The notes beneath the pieces are model-generated. The model was not told the origin of the DNA. It saw nothing but the letters and a program-made list of their open reading frames with translations, and did not search any database. This document shows positions 11,866 through 61,165 of a DNA stretch of 64,000 bases, in pieces; the stretch's first letter is position 1; each line of letters begins with the position of its first letter. Position numbers and translations under genes: made by a program. Source of the stretch: Antedon mediterranea (taxonomy: Eukaryota > Echinodermata > Crinoidea > Comatulida > Antedonidae). The stretch is from positions 19,140,288 through 19,204,287 of the forward strand of contig NC_092676.1 in assembly GCF_964355755.1 (NCBI RefSeq), given 5' to 3'.

Positions 11866-12290
11866 AGTTTGCCTTTAGGTTTTAGTTAATGTAGTTAGTT
11901 ACCTTAGTTAACTTAGTTTGCCTTTAGGTTATAGTTAATGTTCCCTCCTGTAAGTGGTGAACCATGAGCTCACTGTTGGTTGGGAAATGAATAAATAAAA
12001 TAAAATAAATAAAAATGTAGTTAGTTGCCTTAGTTAACTTAGTTTGCCTTTAGGTTATAGTTAATGTAGTTAGTTACCTTAGTTAACTTAGTTTGCCTTT
12101 AGGTTATAGTTAATGTAGTTAGTTACCTTAGTTAACTTAGTTTGCCTTTAGGTTATAGTTAATTTAGTTAGTTACCTTAGTTAACTTAGTTTGCCTTTAG
12201 GTTATAGTTAATGTAGTTAGTTACCTTAGTTAACTTAGTTTGCCTTTAGGTTATAGTTAATGTAGTTAGTTACCTTAGTTAACTCAATTT
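11866..12290. repeat. 49-bp minisatellite (GTAGTTAGTTACC unit)
   Basis: The unit runs GTAGTTAGTTACCTTAGTTA, then ACTTAGTTTGCC, then TTTAGGTTATAGTTAAT, 49 bp in all. Copies start at about 12,017, 12,066, 12,115 and on. Units right of the insertion at 11,946-12,015 are nearly identical. Confidence 0.85.
11946..12015 (+). mobile_element. Short retroposon-like insertion in minisatellite
   Basis: A unique block (TTCCCTCCTGTAAGTGGTG ... GTTGGGAAATG) ends in (AATAAA)n/(AAAT)n and interrupts the 49-bp tandem array. It looks like a 5'-truncated retroposon tail. Confidence 0.4.
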
Positions 12291-22408: not shown

Positions 22409-25400
22409 TCAAAAATCATTTGTTTCCTGTTGCCGTAGAATATCCTCAATGTAGTCACTCTCGTCAAGTTTAGATGGTTGCCCAGTTAATCTGATAATAT
22501 AAATAAACAATTACTGTTTATGTGCAATGTTTATTCATAAGCACAATCTGTAATAACGAGTTCTATGTTGCCAAACCCGACCAAACCCACAGTTTGTTAA
22601 AAAAAATATAGGGTCGTCTTACACCCAACACCCTTTTAGCAGCCTATATACCCTCAACATCCTCACTGGGCACCTACGCAATACATTCTTATATAGCACT
22701 ACCATCGACATTCTCTTTTAGCAATACCACAACGTCTTCTTAGCGTCTACCCTTAACACCCAATTAGCGTCTACTCAATACCCTCTTAACGCCTACCCTT
22801 AACACTTACAAATGTATAAGAATGACTTACGTTGAATCTTGATTAACAATCGCTTTCAAAGAAGCCAAAACTTTAGGATCACGGTACAAGTCTTTTAATG
22901 TATTAATGTAAAACTGCTCACCTCTATAAATAAAGTACCATAAAAATCATTGTTATAGTTTAAATTAATCTAGGCGTTGACACACACCAAACATAATAAC
23001 ATAAATTGTTTGGTCGTGTGAATTGCTTTTGGGGGCGATTTTGATTGTTTACACTGATTCAATAGTTTCAGCCAATCAGAAGAGAGCAATAAACTAGGTC
23101 CCAACCTGAAGGATGAATGCTTAGCGCTAGACATTAACAAACGTATGGACTGGGAGATCAGATAGTAGAAACATTTGTAATAACCGTCTGACAGTGGTCA
23201 CGCAATACAGTCATTACAAAACAAACTTACGTAGCGGTTCTCTTTCCTGTCTCTGCAATTGCACTCATCCTATCATTATTTTGGAGTACACTTCCCATTT
23301 TAGACCAAATAGTTTGATGTGCATTTGGTCGTTTCGCCCTATTGGATAACACACATTTATACATAAATATCCGGTTTGCGATAGCAGGCAGAATGCACAA
23401 ACAACATTATCAATAAACCCCGAATCTTTAAACGCAATCATTATTAGGCCAAACTGGTTATGGTACTACAGTAATTATTAGGAAGACCATTCCACGGTAT
23501 CATAAAAAAAAGTGTGTTATAGCAGTTAGTTAGGCCTACAGGTATTTCTTTGGAAGAAGGAAGTCTTTCCTTCACAGTACAGATGTGATTCCCATTTTCT
23601 GCTGGTCGAGTCGATTGACGTAGGCTACTTTATGCATTTGTAAGAGGCCATCTTGATATCGCTATGTTGTAGGCCCCCTAATTCTACTTGTGATACGGCA
23701 TAATGGTACTTACATTGCTCTTTTCCCCGAATCACTTAGTGAAGTGACACGGTCATCTGTGGCATCTCCTACCATAGTCCATAAACGTTGCTGGGAATCA
23801 GCTTTCTTTCTGTATTGCCTAGGTAACCTAGGTCCAAAAAGTAGTACAAAATCATTCAAAATGGAAACAAAATAAAATCAGACTTTGAATAAGCCATTTC
23901 GCAGTTCTATCAAGTTACTCACTTCCATACAAAAAATTCAGTTATAAAAAAGACAAAACAAACGGTTAAATTGAACTGGCAGACAATTCGATTATTTACA
24001 CTTTTGAACCAATTTTGGTAAAAATGATTATGAAAACTATTATGTGGCTGTATTGCCTAGGTAACCTAGCTTGAAAAAAAAAATATCCATCAATCAGTAG
24101 TTTCAAGTTATCGATGTTTTACGTTTTAATTTACATAATTAAGTTAATTTGCATATACATTTTAGCCGGTGGTAGGAGTGTTATTGTTTAAATTCTGTTC
24201 TTGAATCAGATCATGCTTTTCTTTATGTAGTAAGTGTTAAACTCTGTTTACACTGTCAAACTAGTTTGACAAAATAGTGTGATGTGCCTTGATTGTATAG
24301 TGATGAAATGATTACATCCATTATATGGGGACATCACATTTGATAGTGTAGACTATTTGAATTGTGGTACAAGTGTTTCTTTGAATAAAAACTCTTTCTT
24401 CCACTGGATGGGCAGATCTTCTTAATTTACTACAAAATACAGACGACGTGATTCCAATTGTATTATTTCATTGACTTACGCTCTTTTCCCTGAATCACTT
24501 AGTGAAGTGACACGGTCATCTGTGGCGTCTCCTACCATAGTCCATAAACGATGTTGAGAATCTGCTTTCTTTCTGCAATGGAAAAACAGTATACGGTGTA
24601 GGCCTATATGCATCAGAGATGGTTAGTCTAAACAATTTGTTCAGTCCTCAGTTAGAAACATCGTGTTATAAATTAATCGTATTAAGCATAGCTAAAACGG
24701 TACTGATGATATGTGAGTTTGTCAGTAAATAAACCTCTGCAAAATTGTAGCTTTCTTTAATTATGACGCACCATTTTGTTTTAATTGCATCAAATGTTTT
24801 TGGTAAATTTGTTTACAAGATATATTCAAAATGTCGTCGTCATCTACAACCCGAACTAAACTGTTGTATGCAATGGCCCCTTTGCCATTGACATACTTAA
24901 TGTAATGTCTCATCTGAACCCCGTGTCCAATTGTGTTTACCTATCTCTAACATAATTATAATTTTGAGGATAATATTGAGGTACATACGTTGTTTTATGT
25001 GACGGTAAATATGGATATTCTAATTGTTCTGCTTCCATAAACCTATAATAACAAAACATGTAAACAAATATTATAGTACTTTTCAGAGGGAATGATTCTG
25101 GTAAGGATTACAAGGAACCGTTGGGTATAAGTGTTTCTTTATATTTTTTTGGGAATTGGTACCGTAGTAATATGTAATAATGTTGGTGGTGTATGTCGAT
25201 AAAATATTATTATAGGGACTAGAATAGTCACAATTCTGTATTTTGTCTAGACTAGATGGCGCTATATTACAAGAAGACAACACTAATGATAATTGAATGT
25301 AATGATAGCTTAATAATGTCGTCAGTCATCCGTACCAACAGATAATTAAATATAGTTTAGCAAAATATCAACTGTTAATATTTACCATGGAGTGCGTTTA

Positions 25401-27617
25401 CCGGTTTGCCTTAAAGAGCTAATACTATCGCTACCTGTGCGTACCTTCCCCAATTTGCTCCACAATATGTGTTGAGAATTTTGACGCTTCCTTTAACAGA
25501 AAAATTAAAATAATAAGAAAATATTTGATTAGGCCTATATCTGTATATTATAGTTACGTAATACCAAATGGCAGCCAACCATCTTAGGTAATAGGAACGT
25601 GTTCCGCAGTTGTCTGTCCTTCTCGTAGTTTACTGCAATCTTATGTCTTTTATCTTTTGGAAGAAATATTATTAAAGAAAGAGTCGTAGCTAACAACCCT
25701 GCTAGTTAAATACATTTTTCTTAAATACAGAAACCACATTAGCGGCCCTATGTTTCAATTGGTCTAAACAGAACTAAAAAAACAGAAACAATAACTAATT
25801 CTAATACATTTGAATCATCATCAATATTAGGTCTTATTATTATGTAAACATTACTTACAAAAATATTCAGCAAAATGCTTAATTTAATTTACTTCAGGCC
25901 GTACTTTCTGTTTATTAAAACGTGGATCAGAAATATTTTCAAACTTCTTGGAATATTTTATTCTATTTTCTAATTCGATCATTTATCATTCAAAGTTATA
26001 TATTTTGACAGTCGTACTATTTTAAATTAGCTCAACTTCATTAACCTTCCAAGCTCAAAGGTATTGTTTAATTTCCTTCTGTATGATTGCTAAAAAAATT
26101 ATTATCTTTCTCATAATTTATGAGATATCCTTAAGATGGCGTGCGTCGTATACTGATGAGTTGAGATTGAAGTGATTGTCATGCCCGTCATTGCGCCATA
26201 ATACGAAATATATAAATGTACAGGCAAATGCTAATTGTGCCTAAGAAATGTGTGTTCAGCATCATCACTCACTTGATCATTTAGGTGGCTTAAGGTTTTT
26301 AGACACAAAGGGTCAGAGGTCAAGTCTTGATCGGAAAGAATGTTTAACTTTCGTAGATGTTCCCATCTGTACCGTTCACACATTGTGATTACAGCTGTCT
26401 TGGCAGTCCTCCTAGACTGGTTAAGGTTGGTGATAGTGGTGCGTGAAGGATGTACAATGGTTCACTTGCATCATATTGCTAAAGCAGAGGAATTCCTAAT
26501 GGCTTAAAATCCCACCCAATTTCTTCTTTTAATTGTTCCAAAAACAACTGAACTCAATCCGCTGAGAAACGGTTCCGTCAATAACTTCATTTTTTCTTGC
26601 GATGTGATATCCTTTTTCGATTTTCCAGTTATAAGTTCTTCTTCCATGTGTAGGCCTACCTTCCCAGGCTAAGTAGTAGGCTACACCATCCGCAGAAAAG
26701 GGTTAAATCTGATTGCAGTTTCGTATGATACCTCGTGTTGATATCATTTATTCGGCTTGTTGATTCTAAACTTCAATTTTCAATCCAAATTGTGTCTGAT
26801 AACAGAAATATTTACTCTTTACTAACTTAAAAGACGATTAAAGAAGAAAAGATGCGATACTTACAGCTTAGGATTATTTTCTGTTTCTAGCATTGCATTG
26901 TTGTATACTGGATGTTCCTTCCATAGCAAATCTTCACGAAGCTGTTGCAATCTAGACCATTGAATGAAAGTGTAAAAAGGATGTGACTGTCAAATTACGT
27001 GATTATTATTCCTAGGTGTTAGAATTTTCAACTGTACCTAAGGTACTGAATTAAAATAGACCCACGGTTTATCGGTACTGTATCTAGATTTCTTCAGTAT
27101 CACAGTACAATTTTTTAATACAGCACAATTGACATAAATATAATACTATGGAAAGTTTGGTCATTTAAATTTGAAATTCTGTAAGGACACCAGATTCTAC
27201 CTACAAGCATCTTTTTGGTTTATCGAATAATAGCCTAAATTTCAATTTAAAACTATTATTTCTTATACTTAGACCCTAGGCACAATAAGATAAAAATTCA
27301 TGCATCTTCTTGTCTTCACAAGGTAGAATAGCTTGAATACAGTCTTGGAGATCTTACTAACTAGTAATAACCACTTAAATGTAATTCAATGACATTTGAG
27401 TTCAATTTAGTTCAAAAACGGCTAAAGCCTTTTGAATAAAATGTGCAGATAAAGCCGAATGTATTTATCAAATTACAACACGTGACTTAGAAGGCAAAAT
27501 ATTAAGACTTTTTTCAAACCTGTGTGATTATATTACCTAGTAAATGTAACTTACGATTTATGTTCTTCGTTTTTAATTTCGTTCAGTAAATCGAGAATGT
27601 CTTCTTTAACACCGTTT
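22409..27617 (-). CDS. Multi-peptide amidated neuropeptide precursor (5' exon not found)
   Basis: Nine exons on the minus strand in transcription order: 27,617-27,555; 26,951-26,865; 25,490-25,386; 25,042-24,989; 24,572-24,480; 23,809-23,714; 23,338-23,231; 22,923-22,831; 22,490-22,409 (stop TGA). Each has a clean ag acceptor. The donors are gtaagt-like, with gtaaat after 25,386 and gtatgt after 24,989. Every exon has the form 1+3n+2, so all introns are phase 2, and the joined frame is open for 260 residues. Four exons each encode one peptide of 25-27 residues bounded by KR or KK and by Gly-Lys-Arg (amidation and cleavage). They share the core (Q/H)xxx(L/I)W(S/T)(K/M)xG and a Ser/Thr at the amidated end. 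The first two exons (starting NGVKEDILDLLNEI) and the last two (GEQFYINTLKDLYRD; ending DYIEDILRQQETNDF) are acidic spacers. A signal-peptide exon must lie at higher coordinates. The length and amidation resemble echinoderm PDF-like and other class-B-receptor ligands, but I cannot assign a family. Confidence 0.8.
22618..22812. repeat. Degenerate CCCTTAACAC repeat
   Basis: Imperfect units such as TTAGCGTCTACCCTTAACAC recur with strong C/A bias on the plus strand. It lies in the last intron of the minus-strand precursor gene. Confidence 0.55.
23231..23338 (-). CDS. Exon for amidated peptide 4 of the multi-peptide precursor
   Basis: This 108-bp exon has acceptor caatag and donor gtaagt. After AKR comes a 27-residue peptide, PNAHQTIWSKMGSVLQNND continuing to SAIAET, then Gly-Lys-Arg and TAT. 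It is the last amidated peptide before the two C-terminal spacer exons. Confidence 0.8.
23714..23809 (-). CDS. Exon for amidated peptide 3 (recent duplicate of peptide 2 exon)
   Basis: This 96-bp exon has acceptor atacag and donor gtaagt. It encodes KK, a 25-residue peptide starting ADSQQRLWTMVG and ending LSDS, and Gly-Lys-Arg. Only a few mostly synonymous base changes separate it from 24,480-24,572, and codons stay in phase, so both copies look functional. Confidence 0.82.
23877..24046. mobile_element. MITE family 1 interior relic in precursor-gene intron
   Basis: The interior of family 1 is recognisable (GACTTTGAAT, CACTTCCAT, AAACGGTTAAATTGAAC, CTGGCAG), but the terminal repeats are missing. 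It lies between the duplicated peptide exons. Confidence 0.6.
24239..24353. mobile_element. MITE family 2 short copy in precursor-gene intron
   Basis: Begins AACTCTGTTTACACTGTC with AAACTAGTTTGAC, and ends CATTTGATAGTGTAGAC. Centrally deleted. Confidence 0.7.
24480..24572 (-). CDS. Exon for amidated peptide 2 of the multi-peptide precursor
   Basis: This 93-bp exon carries KK, then a 25-residue peptide ADSQHRLWTMVGDATDD continuing to TSLSDS, then Gly-Lys-Arg. It is nearly identical to the exon at 23,714-23,809: one residue differs in the mature peptide (His here, Gln there), and the two exon ends differ by one codon. The acceptor is ttgcag and the donor gtaagt. Confidence 0.82.
25386..25490 (-). 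CDS. Exon for amidated peptide 1 of the multi-peptide precursor
   Basis: This 105-bp exon begins with the KR that releases the peptide. The mature peptide is 27 residues: QNSQHILWSKLG, then a Lys/Arg/Ser-rich stretch, ending LRQT before Gly-Lys-Arg. It is the most basic of the four and the first in the precursor. With peptide 4 it shares WSK(L/M)G, which separates 1 and 4 from the duplicated pair 2 and 3 (WTMVG). Confidence 0.8.
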
Positions 27618-36434: not shown

Positions 36435-38799
36435 CTATACTGATGATGAATGATGATATATTGATTGAACTTGATATTTTGTCATGTCAAAATATTAATT
36501 TCGAATTATTGAACACCTCACGATTCTGTGAATAAACAAACATGACCTGGATTCAATTCTTCGAGTTTCAAATCATCTGTTAAACAATTATTGATTGTAG
36601 AAACATGATGTATAACTTATTTCAATTTCAAGACAATCGTAAAAGTATCTTTGCCATGAATTTTATTTTCCATTAAATTTTAAAATCATAAAGTGTTATT
36701 CGAAAATTGAAAGCATTTATTAAATTGTCTTGTGATCGTTATATAACAGCTTTTGTGAAGGCATTAAACAGTGAGTTCACTATTAACTGGTAATGTTGAA
36801 CACTAAAAACTGTTAAGCCTGCTCTTCTCTGTCAAATTAGGTTGAGGTCTGGTTGGTTTCAAAGTTCTTATTGTCACAAAAAGTAGCGTTATTTGCTGAA
36901 AGTTTATTGTAAAAAAAAAAAAATATAACAGTAGAATATTAAAGTCCGTTAGGGCTGAAACAAGGGTGTTCAGTTTTTTCAAAAACACCAAATTTGGTAT
37001 ATAGGTTTTTTTCTACTCTCTACCAATTTAATTTTTGAAGGGCGCCAAGCAAAACGACCTAATTGGCATAATTTAAAAGGCGTACTTTTTAACTTAAATA
37101 CTCTGTATCTTTTTAAACTACTGGTCATGGAAAGTTTATGATAACAACAAAAGGCATTCCTATTTACTTATTCTTGAATAATTAAAACGGACTGGAAGTA
37201 CCATTTTTAAGACATTGTCATATCTCAGGAAAGAGTTTATTTTGGTGTCAAATTATTCAGAATATATAATAGTTACTTTTGTAAATGAAACACTTTCTTG
37301 AAGCGTGTCAATATTTATTGATAATACTTTTCAAACATGTAATTGGCCCACTATGACTAGAACCTAGATAGCTTTAAACAGTGAATTCTGTAAACTATTT
37401 TGTTGTATAGCTGTACAGTAATCATACAGAGGAATTATGTTCCTCCGTATACAGCATCCTAGGTCTTTTGTAGGCCTAGTTATCTTAGTACAGTTGTTAT
37501 ACTGTACATTTCAATATCTCAGTTTCAATTTGCTTTTCATTTCAATCGAAGTTGTTCTGACGTGTATTTACTTATAAACAACATGGAGAAATAACAGGAA
37601 TATCTGAGATAACCCAAAGTACCACGGGAGAATATTTTACCCAATTTGTATTCACTTTGAGATCTTTGCCCAAAGCACGAGTGTAGGGACTTTCAAACAA
37701 ATAGGATGCTATTTAATAGTTCAAATATGGTTTGTATTTCAGTACATTAGAATAAAGTGTATATTCAAACCTCACAAATTTCTTTTTATATGAGATAAGA
37801 ATGTTATAGAGGAACATAATGTTGTACTTTAACATATCGATATGCTTGTCATTCAATATAGACAAATGTCTCTATCTAAAAAAACATTCGTCATTGACTG
37901 TAGGCCAGAGCTTATACATTTTATGTTAGTCCCCCAGTCAGCGTTTCTATTTTTGTCTGAAGTATGAGACACCAATAATTTCGGTCTAGAACCTAGACTT
38001 GCCAGATCTATAACAGTGCCTAAGATACGAACAGTTCAGGATTCAATATTTTGGACATTAATTATGGATTTTTACCGAATGTTGTTTAAACATTTTAGAA
38101 AGAAAACAAAACTTATACTTACTGTGCTTGTGAAACTTGAAATACGATAAAGAAATATATGCATATTGAGAAAATCCAAAAAGAATCCCGAATTCGTAAC
38201 ATCACTGCACAATATTAGACTACTAAAGAAGAAAAAAAAAAAGAATAAATACAAGCAAAATAAATACAAAGATGCATGGAAGATTTGCACAATTCACATA
38301 AGCAACCCGTGTAATCTCTTTTTATTGTTCAATAATCTAGACATACATCAACATGTTGCAGTTAGGAGCTAGAAAGATTTTGTGATATATTGTCACTCTT
38401 CTGTCCTATATATGAACATGACCGAAAGTATAGTTTGTTAATCGTGTTTTTTATTACAGTGAACAGAAATACAGTGTACAATTATAACATTCCTGATGTG
38501 ATGTGACGTCACGATACTAATCGGGGTGTGTACATAATATTTTGTGTGCTATATATAGGCCTACGCGCGTCACAGCGAAGCATTATATGTGAACATTCCC
38601 TCGTTACACTATTAACACATGTACGCCCTGTTAGTACTTATTACTGCTACTGCTACCAATGAACAAATAAACAACATTATAGTTGGCACTTAGAGCATCA
38701 ATCAATATATCAAAATATAAAAATGCTCAAGAAAAAAAGCACCGCTGCGATCGGGTATTGCGCCGCTCGTGTAAGCACCGCGGCACTTTTGATCAGTAA

Positions 38800-49849: not shown

Positions 49850-50934
49850 AAGAAAACACGACCCTTAACATGCCACTAGCAACTATTTTCTTACAACACC
49901 ATGTACATTGTACTTTCTGATCAATCTTAAAAAATAGAATAACTTAAAACAAGCGTCATTGGACATGTAGGCCTAGGTCTATTTAAATTCTTAACGTCTA
50001 TCTATAGTTGAAAGTGCTAAATTTAAACCGCATGTGTGCATATAGTAATGGCTTTTTAGAAATCGTTGATGCTTTAAAATAAATCTTGACATCTTTATTT
50101 CTCAATTAGTATGCAACTAATTAATGAGCTATATCCACCTTAAGCGATACGTTGGAATGTTCTCAAGGATATGATAACAGAGGAACACATCAAACACTCG
50201 CGCATGTTTGCACAGCGCGCTGCGTTAACTATCCATGACGTCATGGCAATAATAAATTCTATAATAAATTCGTAATTCCACTACTTCCGGTGTTACTTTG
50301 TAGTGGTCAGTTGGTCAGTTAATTAAAGCATGGAGTAAATAAGTCAATGACCAGCAATATATATTATTAGAAAGCGTGTGTTAATTACTCAGAAACAACG
50401 TGGATGACGTGGACGCACTTTAAGAGAAATAGGAAAGTCGTTTACACATACATACAATTATATGAATTTTTATGAAGTCAGCCCTATGTGCAGGAGGGGA
50501 GCGGGGTTGTGAGCTTATAGCTGTTATTATTGTACCTTAAACTATAGTGCTTTCACCTAAATAAATTGACTAGCAAAACTCCGGAGATTACACACACACG
50601 CGCGGGAGGCGTGAAGCCACCATACCTCGTGAGTAGGTCTGGTATGTTTAAACTTTTTGTATTGAAGACGGTAATTTGTTTACACACTGACCAAGTGGCT
50701 AATCAGGCCTGCACAGAGATGCATTTATATATTTATTTCACTTTTGCTCATGAAAACGTGATTTTATTATTATGAATGAATCGACTGATGTTTTACAAAT
50801 TGTTATTAAAAGAATATCGGGGACACGTTAATTGTTTGACCAATTTCAATTAATAAGGATTTAGGATTTCTTTCTTAAAGCAACTCAAATTTATAATCAA
50901 TCACGGGTCATGACTCAGATAAGAATGATCAGTA

Positions 50935-59514: not shown

Positions 59515-61165
59515 TAAGCACATGTATAACACTCTGACCAATTTGTCCATATCCATTTGTATACTCTAAACACTTTATGGATATAACAGCAGCATCATGT
59601 AAGTAATATTAAAACATTTCCTCTAAAAACTGTTCAACGATTTATGGATATATCAGCATCATGTTAGTAAAGGAGTAGACACTGAAACATTTGTAACACA
59701 CTGAATATTATGGATATAACATCAACATGTTAGCAAACGGGTAGAGGCTATTATGTACGACTCTGAGCAATATATAGATATAACATAATGGAACTAAAGC
59801 GTCTGTAACACTCTAAACACTGTATTGATATAACAGCATGTCATGGTAGCAAACGGGTAGGCACTAAACGTTTGTAACACCCTAAACACTATATGTATAT
59901 AACATCATCATGTTAGCAAACGGGTAGAGACTAAACATTTGTACGTCTATGAGCACTATATAACATCATGTAACTAAAAGGGATAGACACTAACACGTCT
60001 GTAACACTCTAAACACTGTATTGATATAACAGCATGTCATGTTAGCAAACGGGTAGAGACTAAACATTTGTACGTCTATGAGCACTATATAACATCATGT
60101 AACTAAAAGGGATAGACACTAAAACGTCTGTAACACTCTAAACACTGTATGGATATAACAGCATGTCATGTCATGAAACGGGTAGGCACTAAACATTTGT
60201 AACACTCTAAACATTGTATGGAAACGGGTAGGCACTAAAACATTTGTAACACTCTAAACACTGTTTGGAAACGGGTAGACACTAACACGTCTGTAACACT
60301 CTAAACACTGTATTGATATAACAGCATGTCATGTTAGCAAACGGGTAGAGACTAAACATTTGTACGTCTATGAGCACTATATAACATCATGTAACTAAAA
60401 GGGATAGACACTAAAACGTCTGTAACACTCTAAACACTGTATGGATATAACAGCATGTCATGTCATGAAACGGGTAGGCACTAAACATTTGTAACACTCT
60501 AAACATTGTATGGAAACGGGTAGGCACTAAAACATTTGTAACACTCTAAACACTGTTTGGAAACGGGTAGGCACTAAAACATTTGTAACACTCGAAACAC
60601 TGTATGAATATAGAAGCATGTTAGTAAAGGGTTAGACAATAAAACACTTGTAACCCTCTAAACACTGTATGGATATAACAGCATGTCATGTTAGTAAACA
60701 GGTAGGCACTAAACATTTGTAACACTCTAAACACTGTATGGTAACGGGTAGGCACTAAAACATTTGTAACACTCTAAACCCTGTATGGTAACGGGTAGGC
60801 ACTAAAACATTTGTAACACTCGGAACACTGTATGAATATAACAGCCTGTTAATAAAGGGTTAGACAATAAAACGTTTGTAACACTCTAAACACTGTATGG
60901 TAACGGGTAGGCACTAAAACATTTGTAACACTCGGAACACTGTATGAATATAACAGCCTGTTAGTAAAGGGTTAGACACTAAAACGTTTGTAACACTCAC
61001 TGTATGGATATAACAGCATCGTGTTGATAAAATGTTAGACATTCTACATGATGGAAAGCAGGGTAAAAAACATCACCCTGAACACTCAAATGCATCATGT
61101 TAGTAAAAAGGAGGATGGGGTTGGTACAGTACACACTGAAAACAGTAACTCTAATCCATGGATAT
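59515..61165. repeat. Satellite-like array with higher-order repeat
   Basis: Imperfect 45-75 bp units contain GTAACACTCTAAACACTGTA, TGGATATAACAGCATG and AACGGGTAGGCACTAAAAC. A block from about 59,986 recurs at 60,278, a 292-bp higher-order duplication. The outer units are the most diverged. Confidence 0.85.

Follow-up and report, generated by a model that had tools for sequence, protein, structure and literature searches.

Nine exons in the crinoid Antedon mediterranea predict a precursor with four amidated peptides, one to an exon

Results

Organization of the gene

The window, i.e. the whole stretch of 64,000 nucleotides that was analysed (Antedon mediterranea, contig NC_092676.1, positions 19,140,288 to 19,204,287), carries nine coding exons on its minus strand, from 27617 down to 22409, in a single open frame that runs through to a stop codon (Table 1). 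AG/GT borders are present at all eight introns between them, the intron phase is 2 throughout, and the length of every one of the eight internal exons (A to H) is a multiple of three. Thus the limits of the gene and the nine exons proposed in the first-pass annotation are borne out. Peptides are found in exons C, E, F and G, one in each, and the remaining five of the nine exons are spacer or tail. Together with the candidate signal-peptide exon the precursor has 286 residues. Because the lengths of the internal exons are all divisible by three and the phase is the same throughout, a peptide exon could be duplicated or skipped without a break in the frame, and the symmetric phase-2 exons would give room for splice variants. 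At exon D, a second in-phase donor (GTAAAC) is located at 24940 and the frame is open up to it; the long form of the exon, 25042-24941 (102 bases), adds a Tyr-rich stretch, YVPQYYPQNYNYVRDR, ahead of peptide 2.

Table 1. Features of the precursor gene (positions in the window) and candidate class B1 receptors (positions in the genome, in Mb). Amidation is predicted. Receptor classes are rough placements by summed tblastn bits, as described in the text.
Feature	Position	Strand	Description
Likely first coding exon	38123..38202	-	MLRIRDSFWIFSICIYFFIVFQVSQA, signal peptide, followed by two bases of a split codon; donor GTAAGT in phase 2
Exon A	27555..27617	-	63 bases encoding the acidic spacer NGVKEDILDLLNEIKNEEHK, phase 2 at either end
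Exon B	26865..26951	-	Spacer LQQLREDLLWKEHPVYNNAMLETENNPK, 87 bases, phase 2
Exon C	25386..25490	-	Peptide 1, QNSQHILWSKLGKVRTGSDSISSLRQT-amide (predicted), 27 residues, codons 25403-25483
Exon D	24989..25042	-	Spacer FMEAEQLEYPYLPSHKT
Exon E	24480..24572	-	Peptide 2, ADSQHRLWTMVGDATDDRVTSLSDS-amide (predicted), 25 residues, codons 24491-24565
Exon F	23714..23809	-	Peptide 3, ADSQQRLWTMVGDATDDRVTSLSDS-amide (predicted), 25 residues, codons 23728-23802
Exon G	23231..23338	-	Peptide 4, PNAHQTIWSKMGSVLQNNDRMSAIAET-amide (predicted), 27 residues, codons 23248-23328
Exon H	22831..22923	-	C-terminal tail GEQFYINTLKDLYRDPKVLASLKAIVNQDS, 93 bases, phase 2
Exon I	22409..22490	-	Tail LTGQPSKLDESDYIEDILRQQETNDF plus stop codon
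Possible poly(A) signals	22232, 21990, 21653		ATTAAA, ATTAAA and AATAAA, respectively
R1	12.15 Mb		CRH-receptor-like, 134 bits versus 90 or less; PDB agrees
R2	13.60 Mb		Calcitonin-receptor-like, 125 bits versus 95 or less
R3	13.52 Mb		Ambiguous
R4	30.73 Mb		Ambiguous
R5	35.37 Mb		Ambiguous
R6	C1:13.79 Mb		Glucagon/secretin/PTH group; GCGR 146, VIPR1 141, PTH1R 122, CALCR 109, CRHR1 70 bits

The nine exons have no initiator codon. Upstream ATG codons were scanned as far as position 50000 for a hydrophobic leader followed by a phase-2 donor scoring above 3. Six starts with five donors survived the scan, and the top donor score (6.5) was obtained at 38202-38123, 10.5 kb upstream of exon A, a stretch absent from the first-pass annotation. 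This stretch has a hydrophobic core, S and A at positions -3 and -1, and the donor GTAAGT. The T-rich tract ending in TTTAG that lies 20 bases ahead of its ATG fits a possible 5′ non-coding exon further upstream. With stricter settings one candidate was obtained in the real 22 kb and at least one in 4 of 20 Markov resamples, and because of the latter 38202-38123 is considered the probable, rather than the certain, signal-peptide exon. The 10.5 kb intron behind it may hold a further exon.

Sequence features of the four peptides

The four peptides share the motif (L/I)W(S/T)(K/M)xG. Each is preceded by a dibasic site (KR, KK, KK and AKR in exons C, E, F and G, respectively) and followed directly by Gly-Lys-Arg, the Gly being the putative amide donor. 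These features agree in all four exons with the earlier description of one peptide of 25-27 residues per exon. W8, G12, D19 and the GKR are invariant in the alignment. Peptides 2 and 3 differ at one residue, and peptide 4, GKR included, shares 25-40% identity with peptides 1 to 3. Conservation is higher in the N-terminal half, with a mean BLOSUM62 score of 2.5 in columns 1-12 (about 1.8 without Trp) versus 1.2 in columns 13-27. Cysteines are absent from all four peptides, and calcitonin-type peptides carry two in the N-terminal region. By AlphaFold2, peptide 4 with GKR was modelled as a single helix (residues 3-27, mean pLDDT 72); short peptides are frequently modelled as helices by predictions of this type. 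The helical hydrophobic moment was not significant in any of the nine segments analysed (p 0.08-0.82).

The introns lie one base ahead of the KR or KK in exons C, E and F, and four bases ahead of the KR in exon G.

Duplication and constraint of exons E and F

Exons E and F differ in 6 of 30 codons, five of the changes being silent and one a replacement. The dS is 0.30 and the dN 0.014, giving a dN/dS of about 0.05, a rough value as it is based on a single replacement. The repeat covers 101 bases at 92% identity and ends within 8 bases of the exon. When the two exons with 500 bases on each side were compared by BLAST, the aligned rows comprised the exon itself, an acceptor-like segment of 31 bases and three smaller pieces (18 bases, inverted; 27 bases; 14 bases); the top row (329 bases, 100%) was left out, as it is an overlap of the same DNA. 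The introns can be aligned only in these short pieces, and therefore the duplication is not recent and the coding part has been conserved. Gene conversion could be an alternative cause of the likeness. Growth of the family would have proceeded by duplication of phase-matched exons with a single peptide each, E and F being probably the most recent pair.

A 31-base copy (90%) of the acceptor region of exon F is present at 24048-24078 (versus 23810-23840), 238 bases upstream in the E-F intron. No peptide exon was seen in the frame behind it. The copy is perhaps the trace of a further duplication.

Chance occurrence and copy number

The pattern [KR][KR]-x20-32-G[KR][KR] in an open frame, flanked by AG and a donor-like GT, was counted in the window and in 60 resampled versions of its full length (first-order Markov). 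It occurs four times in the real sequence, exactly at exons C, E, F and G, and in none of the resamples. Chance alignment of open frames, or a gene that is dead or whose product is not secreted, would be conceivable for exons joined by prediction; against it stand the resamples, the eight junctions that keep one frame and the low dN/dS between exons E and F, and this explanation is regarded as very improbable. A profile built from the four peptides recovered them among the window frames with E values of 3e-20 or lower, and the next frame had an E value of 0.69, so that no fifth copy was found in the window. When the four joined peptides were searched at the protein level against the 354 Mb genome, no further copies were obtained beyond these four exons at E values up to 10.

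Comparison with known peptide families

The three distinct peptides (peptide 3, nearly identical to peptide 2, was omitted) were aligned and scored against a set of 24 named peptides, of which 20 are class-B ligands, and columns were permuted jointly, a procedure that keeps the relatedness of the peptides. The best p values of the 24 comparisons in ungapped alignment were those of PTHrP (0.006), human calcitonin (0.008), PTH (0.017), crustacean PDH (0.019), MCH (0.028) and glucagon (0.034). In local alignment the best were calcitonin (0.0175) and CGRP (0.05), with PTHrP at 0.11 and PTH at 0.31. For the PDF-type peptides the values were 0.019 ungapped and 0.20 local for PDH, 0.19 for Drosophila PDF, 0.32 and 0.10 for C. 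elegans PDF1 and PDF2, and 0.84 for cerebrin; TIP39 (0.41), PACAP (0.74), CRH (0.34) and urocortin (0.49) were also compared. Since no p value fell below 0.002, there is no significant likeness to any of the 24 named peptides.

An earlier test on the same three peptides, with independent shuffling and 28 named peptides, had given p = 0.0017 for PTHrP and human calcitonin. It was set aside as inflated, because the three peptides are related and independent shuffling thus overstates significance. When PTH 1-27 is aligned without gaps to peptide 4, G12, L15, R20 and I/L24 coincide, which is suggestive to the eye only. A PTH identity, as read from such a hand alignment, received no support beyond chance from joint column permutation over the 24 peptides.

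Pfam searches gave nothing for the four peptides and nothing credible for the precursor, whose match to RepB_primase (E 0.006) was below the cut-off and is read as chance. The peptide profile run against the PDB matched influenza PB2 in 17 of 17 sequences over a 15-residue stretch (best E 0.016), and the precursor matched four designed-looking PDB proteins at E 0.05 or worse; both are likewise attributed to chance. Genome searches with PF06324, PF01279, PF00123, PF00214 and PF00473 gave no match over the cut-off, and as the calcitonin control was also blank they are uninformative; weak matches below the cut-off were seen elsewhere in the genome for PF00123 (four) and PF00473 (three). DNA patterns for the reported crinoid calcitonin C-terminus and for the sea-cucumber NGIWY peptide did not match the genome. 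In the window, no Rfam family, no tRNA and no Pfam domain (10 of the 20 open frames of at least 85 residues) were found. Phage records gave no tblastn match, as expected. Literature text searches with six peptide fragments found no paper within the searchable text, that is, outside figures and supplements.

The H(S/A)xGxFT-type N-terminal motif, a mark of secretin, glucagon and PACAP, is absent from all four peptides. Their length of 25-27 residues is also short of the approximately 40 residues of CRH-type peptides, and no CRH-like sequence was seen. These results support the first-pass view of a multi-peptide amidated precursor whose family is not obvious, and the search for a significant match to a named precursor, which would have spoken against that view, returned none among the 24 peptides, Pfam and the PDB. 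The PDF-like affinity that had been put forward as an example finds no clear support: PF06324 has no match in the genome, the PDH value is one of 24, and Pfam returned only the sub-threshold RepB_primase hit. Of the wider alternative, a class-B ligand or a new family, the first part stays plausible on weak grounds and the second fits the searches.

Candidate class B1 receptors in the genome

Six hormone-receptor domains were detected in the genome with the Pfam HRM profile, one of them (on C9) in an apparent adhesion GPCR as judged by eye. The six receptor candidates, R1 to R6, are the other five loci and one further gene on C1, each covered in part. To place them, tblastn bit scores were summed for each of five human receptors, a set with no PDF receptor among them; the placement is rough and not based on a tree (Table 1). 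The PDF receptors could be among the ambiguous R3, R4 and R5. The membrane exon of R4 scored 36.5 bits with the CRF receptor versus 34 with adhesion GPCR D1, and by these near-equal values R4 may fall outside class B1. For R6, the DNA taken around the gene contained the membrane exon with the stretch ARNYIHINLFLSFIL alone, and no hormone-binding exon was found there.

Three of the class B1 candidates (calcitonin-receptor-like, ambiguous, and glucagon/secretin/PTH group) lie within about 0.3 Mb at C1 13.52-13.80 Mb. Exons of class-B GPCR membrane domains are dense at C9 18.6-19.0 Mb and C3 33.3-33.5 Mb, many of them paired, among the matches listed. These runs suggest large tandem arrays.

Discussion

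The gene is most likely an as yet unassigned crinoid neuropeptide precursor, as judged from its predicted product. Our main reading, held at a probability of about 0.6, is that its four amidated peptides of 25-27 residues would be ligands of G protein-coupled receptors, with class B1 somewhat favoured. The product would enter the secretory pathway by way of the signal peptide at 38202. Prohormone convertases would cut at the KR and KK sites, a carboxypeptidase would trim Lys-Arg, and PAM would then convert the Gly to a C-terminal amide, so that four peptides would be released. The favoured target would be a class B1 receptor of the PDF/calcitonin, CRH or glucagon/PTH group, for which the genome carries candidates. 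A class-B receptor is a plausible target because of the length of the peptides, their linear amidated form without cysteine, the N-terminal-weighted conservation and the predicted helix, each of these a weak ground. Stronger conservation in the N-terminal half is expected of class B1 ligands. The helical moments, not being significant, weaken the class-B reading.

The strongest competing explanation places the peptides outside class B, as a multi-copy neuropeptide acting on a rhodopsin-class receptor, and it is a tentative but serious one. Many multi-copy amidated precursors serve receptors of this kind, and the helical moment is in keeping with it. Such peptides, however, are usually shorter and have their conserved motif at the C-terminal amide, whereas here it is the N-terminal half that is better conserved.

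Membership in one of the known class-B ligand groups is in each case unlikely. A crinoid PDF, grown from two peptides to four, heads these doubtful assignments: calcitonin-receptor-like candidates are present, PDF receptors could be among such, and NSQHI-LWSKLG of peptide 1 can be aligned by eye with NSELI-NSILG of PDH with one gap. In addition, no PDF- or CRH-type precursor is named for crinoids in the main text of PMC9793003, and the PDF gene of A. japonicus, as described in PMC6586643, comprises four coding exons of which one can be skipped. Yet none of the PDF, PDH and cerebrin values (five protostome peptides, p 0.019 to 0.84) survives 24 comparisons, PF06324 finds nothing in the genome (a search that may be blind to short peptides), and the described starfish and sea-cucumber PDFs are longer and come two to a precursor. 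Slightly less probable still is a peptide acting on receptors of the glucagon/secretin/PTH group, perhaps of PTH type. PTHrP was the top scorer of the 24, R6 is a candidate receptor of the group, and PTH and PTHrP 1-27 aligned gap-free with peptides 1 and 4 by eye give the pooled coincidences S3, Q/E4, L7, G12, K13, R20 and L/I24. In PTH genes an intron lies at the exact position one base before the KR. Phase-2 introns one base before the dibasic site are found in exons C, E and F, and the elephant shark PTH gene is described as having an intron before the KR too; an intron at this place is not decisive by itself. A p value of 0.006 is, however, not significant over 24 comparisons; human calcitonin did equally well, TIP39 poorly, and local alignment weakened both PTHrP and PTH. 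To our knowledge the vertebrate PTH peptides are not amidated, and PF01279 has no match in the genome, though the calcitonin control was blank as well. The specific form of this proposal, in which the four peptides would be the natural ligands of an invertebrate receptor of the group (candidate R6) and the ligand gene would have grown by exon duplication, is given the same low standing. CRH-type peptides are the least probable of these assignments: R1 is CRH-receptor-like and the main text of PMC9793003 leaves a crinoid CRH-type precursor unnamed, but the p values for CRH and urocortin are far from significance, and the starfish CRH is a single peptide of 41 residues as reported in PMC4772807.

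Published precursors were compared with the Antedon gene. The crinoid repertoire given in PMC9793003 (Aleotti 2022) includes calcitonin, eclosion hormone, kisspeptin, luqin, MCH, orexin, pedal peptide, PrRP/sNPF, CCK, VP/OT, heterodimeric hormones, SALMFamides and PCNP1-20. In its main text, the part covered by the text search and separate from figures and supplements, 'PDF-type', 'CRH-type', 'pigment' and 'corticotropin' do not occur. The section on PCNPs describes none with four peptides of 25-27 residues; PCNP11 has one amidated 27-residue peptide in its C-terminal region, and PCNP17 one of 28 residues directly after the signal peptide. A PCNP could still be identical with part of the Antedon gene, the comparison being by description, as the letters are in figures and supplements. 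The same holds for echinoderm peptides at large when a new peptide family is considered, a reading that fits the searches made. Among the unclassified brittle-star precursors, np18, np26 and np27 as described in PMC5627052 do not fit the four-peptide pattern.

The echinoderm PDF precursors (ArPDFP of Asterias rubens, AjPDFP1a/b of Apostichopus japonicus) resemble the Antedon product, as far as described, in having a signal peptide and, set off by dibasic sites, linear peptides roughly 30 residues long; in each pair one peptide carries a Gly for amidation, and a spacer exon is skippable in A. japonicus. They differ in carrying two peptides, of 35 and 29 residues in the starfish (PMC4772807) and of 35 and 32 in the sea cucumber (PMC6586643), versus four of 25-27 here, the sequence comparison being with protostome PDFs alone. 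The sea-cucumber calcitonin precursors AjCTP1/2 are similar in that one peptide is encoded per exon (the third and fourth) and the exons are reportedly used as cassettes by alternative splicing; the exon skipped in A. japonicus compares with the frame-neutral cassettes of the Antedon gene. Unlike the Antedon peptides, AjCT1 and AjCT2 have two N-terminal cysteines. A cephalochordate PACAP/GCG-like gene is described as encoding several class-B type peptides, with three putative mature peptides. These are secretin-family peptides, whereas the Antedon peptides gave p values of 0.034 with glucagon and 0.74 with PACAP. No PACAP homologue was found in echinoderms according to the account in PMC7251081. 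Vertebrate PTH, PTHrP and TIP39 are alike in the intron before the KR site, as described for elephant shark pth2, and in a loose gap-free resemblance; PTH and PTH-L are described with one mature peptide per precursor and mammalian PTHrP with three, in contrast to the four of the Antedon gene. For the cluster B receptors of protostomes the ligand was not known in 2014, as stated in PMC3961327.

The presence of a four-peptide precursor and six candidate class B1 receptors in one genome provides a short, testable ligand-receptor matrix. Among living echinoderms, crinoids are the sister lineage to all the rest. A response by a receptor of the glucagon/secretin/PTH group would throw light on how these hormones arose, and a response by a PDF-type receptor would fill a gap in crinoids. 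If no class B1 candidate responds, the peptides perhaps form a new family with an exon-cassette architecture.

Other observations

A neurophysin family search of the genome gave one locus, at C4 ~25455598. About 8 kb upstream of the neurophysin exon, at C4 ~25447200, a crinotocin-type precursor has a short exon, MQECCRILLVLFALVSLSTACFWRTCPVGGKR, comprising a signal peptide with CFWRTCPVGGKR. The nonapeptide CFWRTCPVG is thus encoded in the genome. CFWRTCPVG-NH2 is the crinotocin synthesised for Antedon mediterranea in PMC9793003, in which Trp-Arg at positions 3-4 is stated to set the three crinoids studied apart from other echinoderms. By this peptide the genome is that of a crinoid, Antedon or a near relative. 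Two repeats were also observed in the window: a 49-base tandem repeat of 5.5 copies with 98% matches at 12014-12284, and, at 59851-60998, a tandem array in which periods of 47, 70, 129 and 292 bases are nested.
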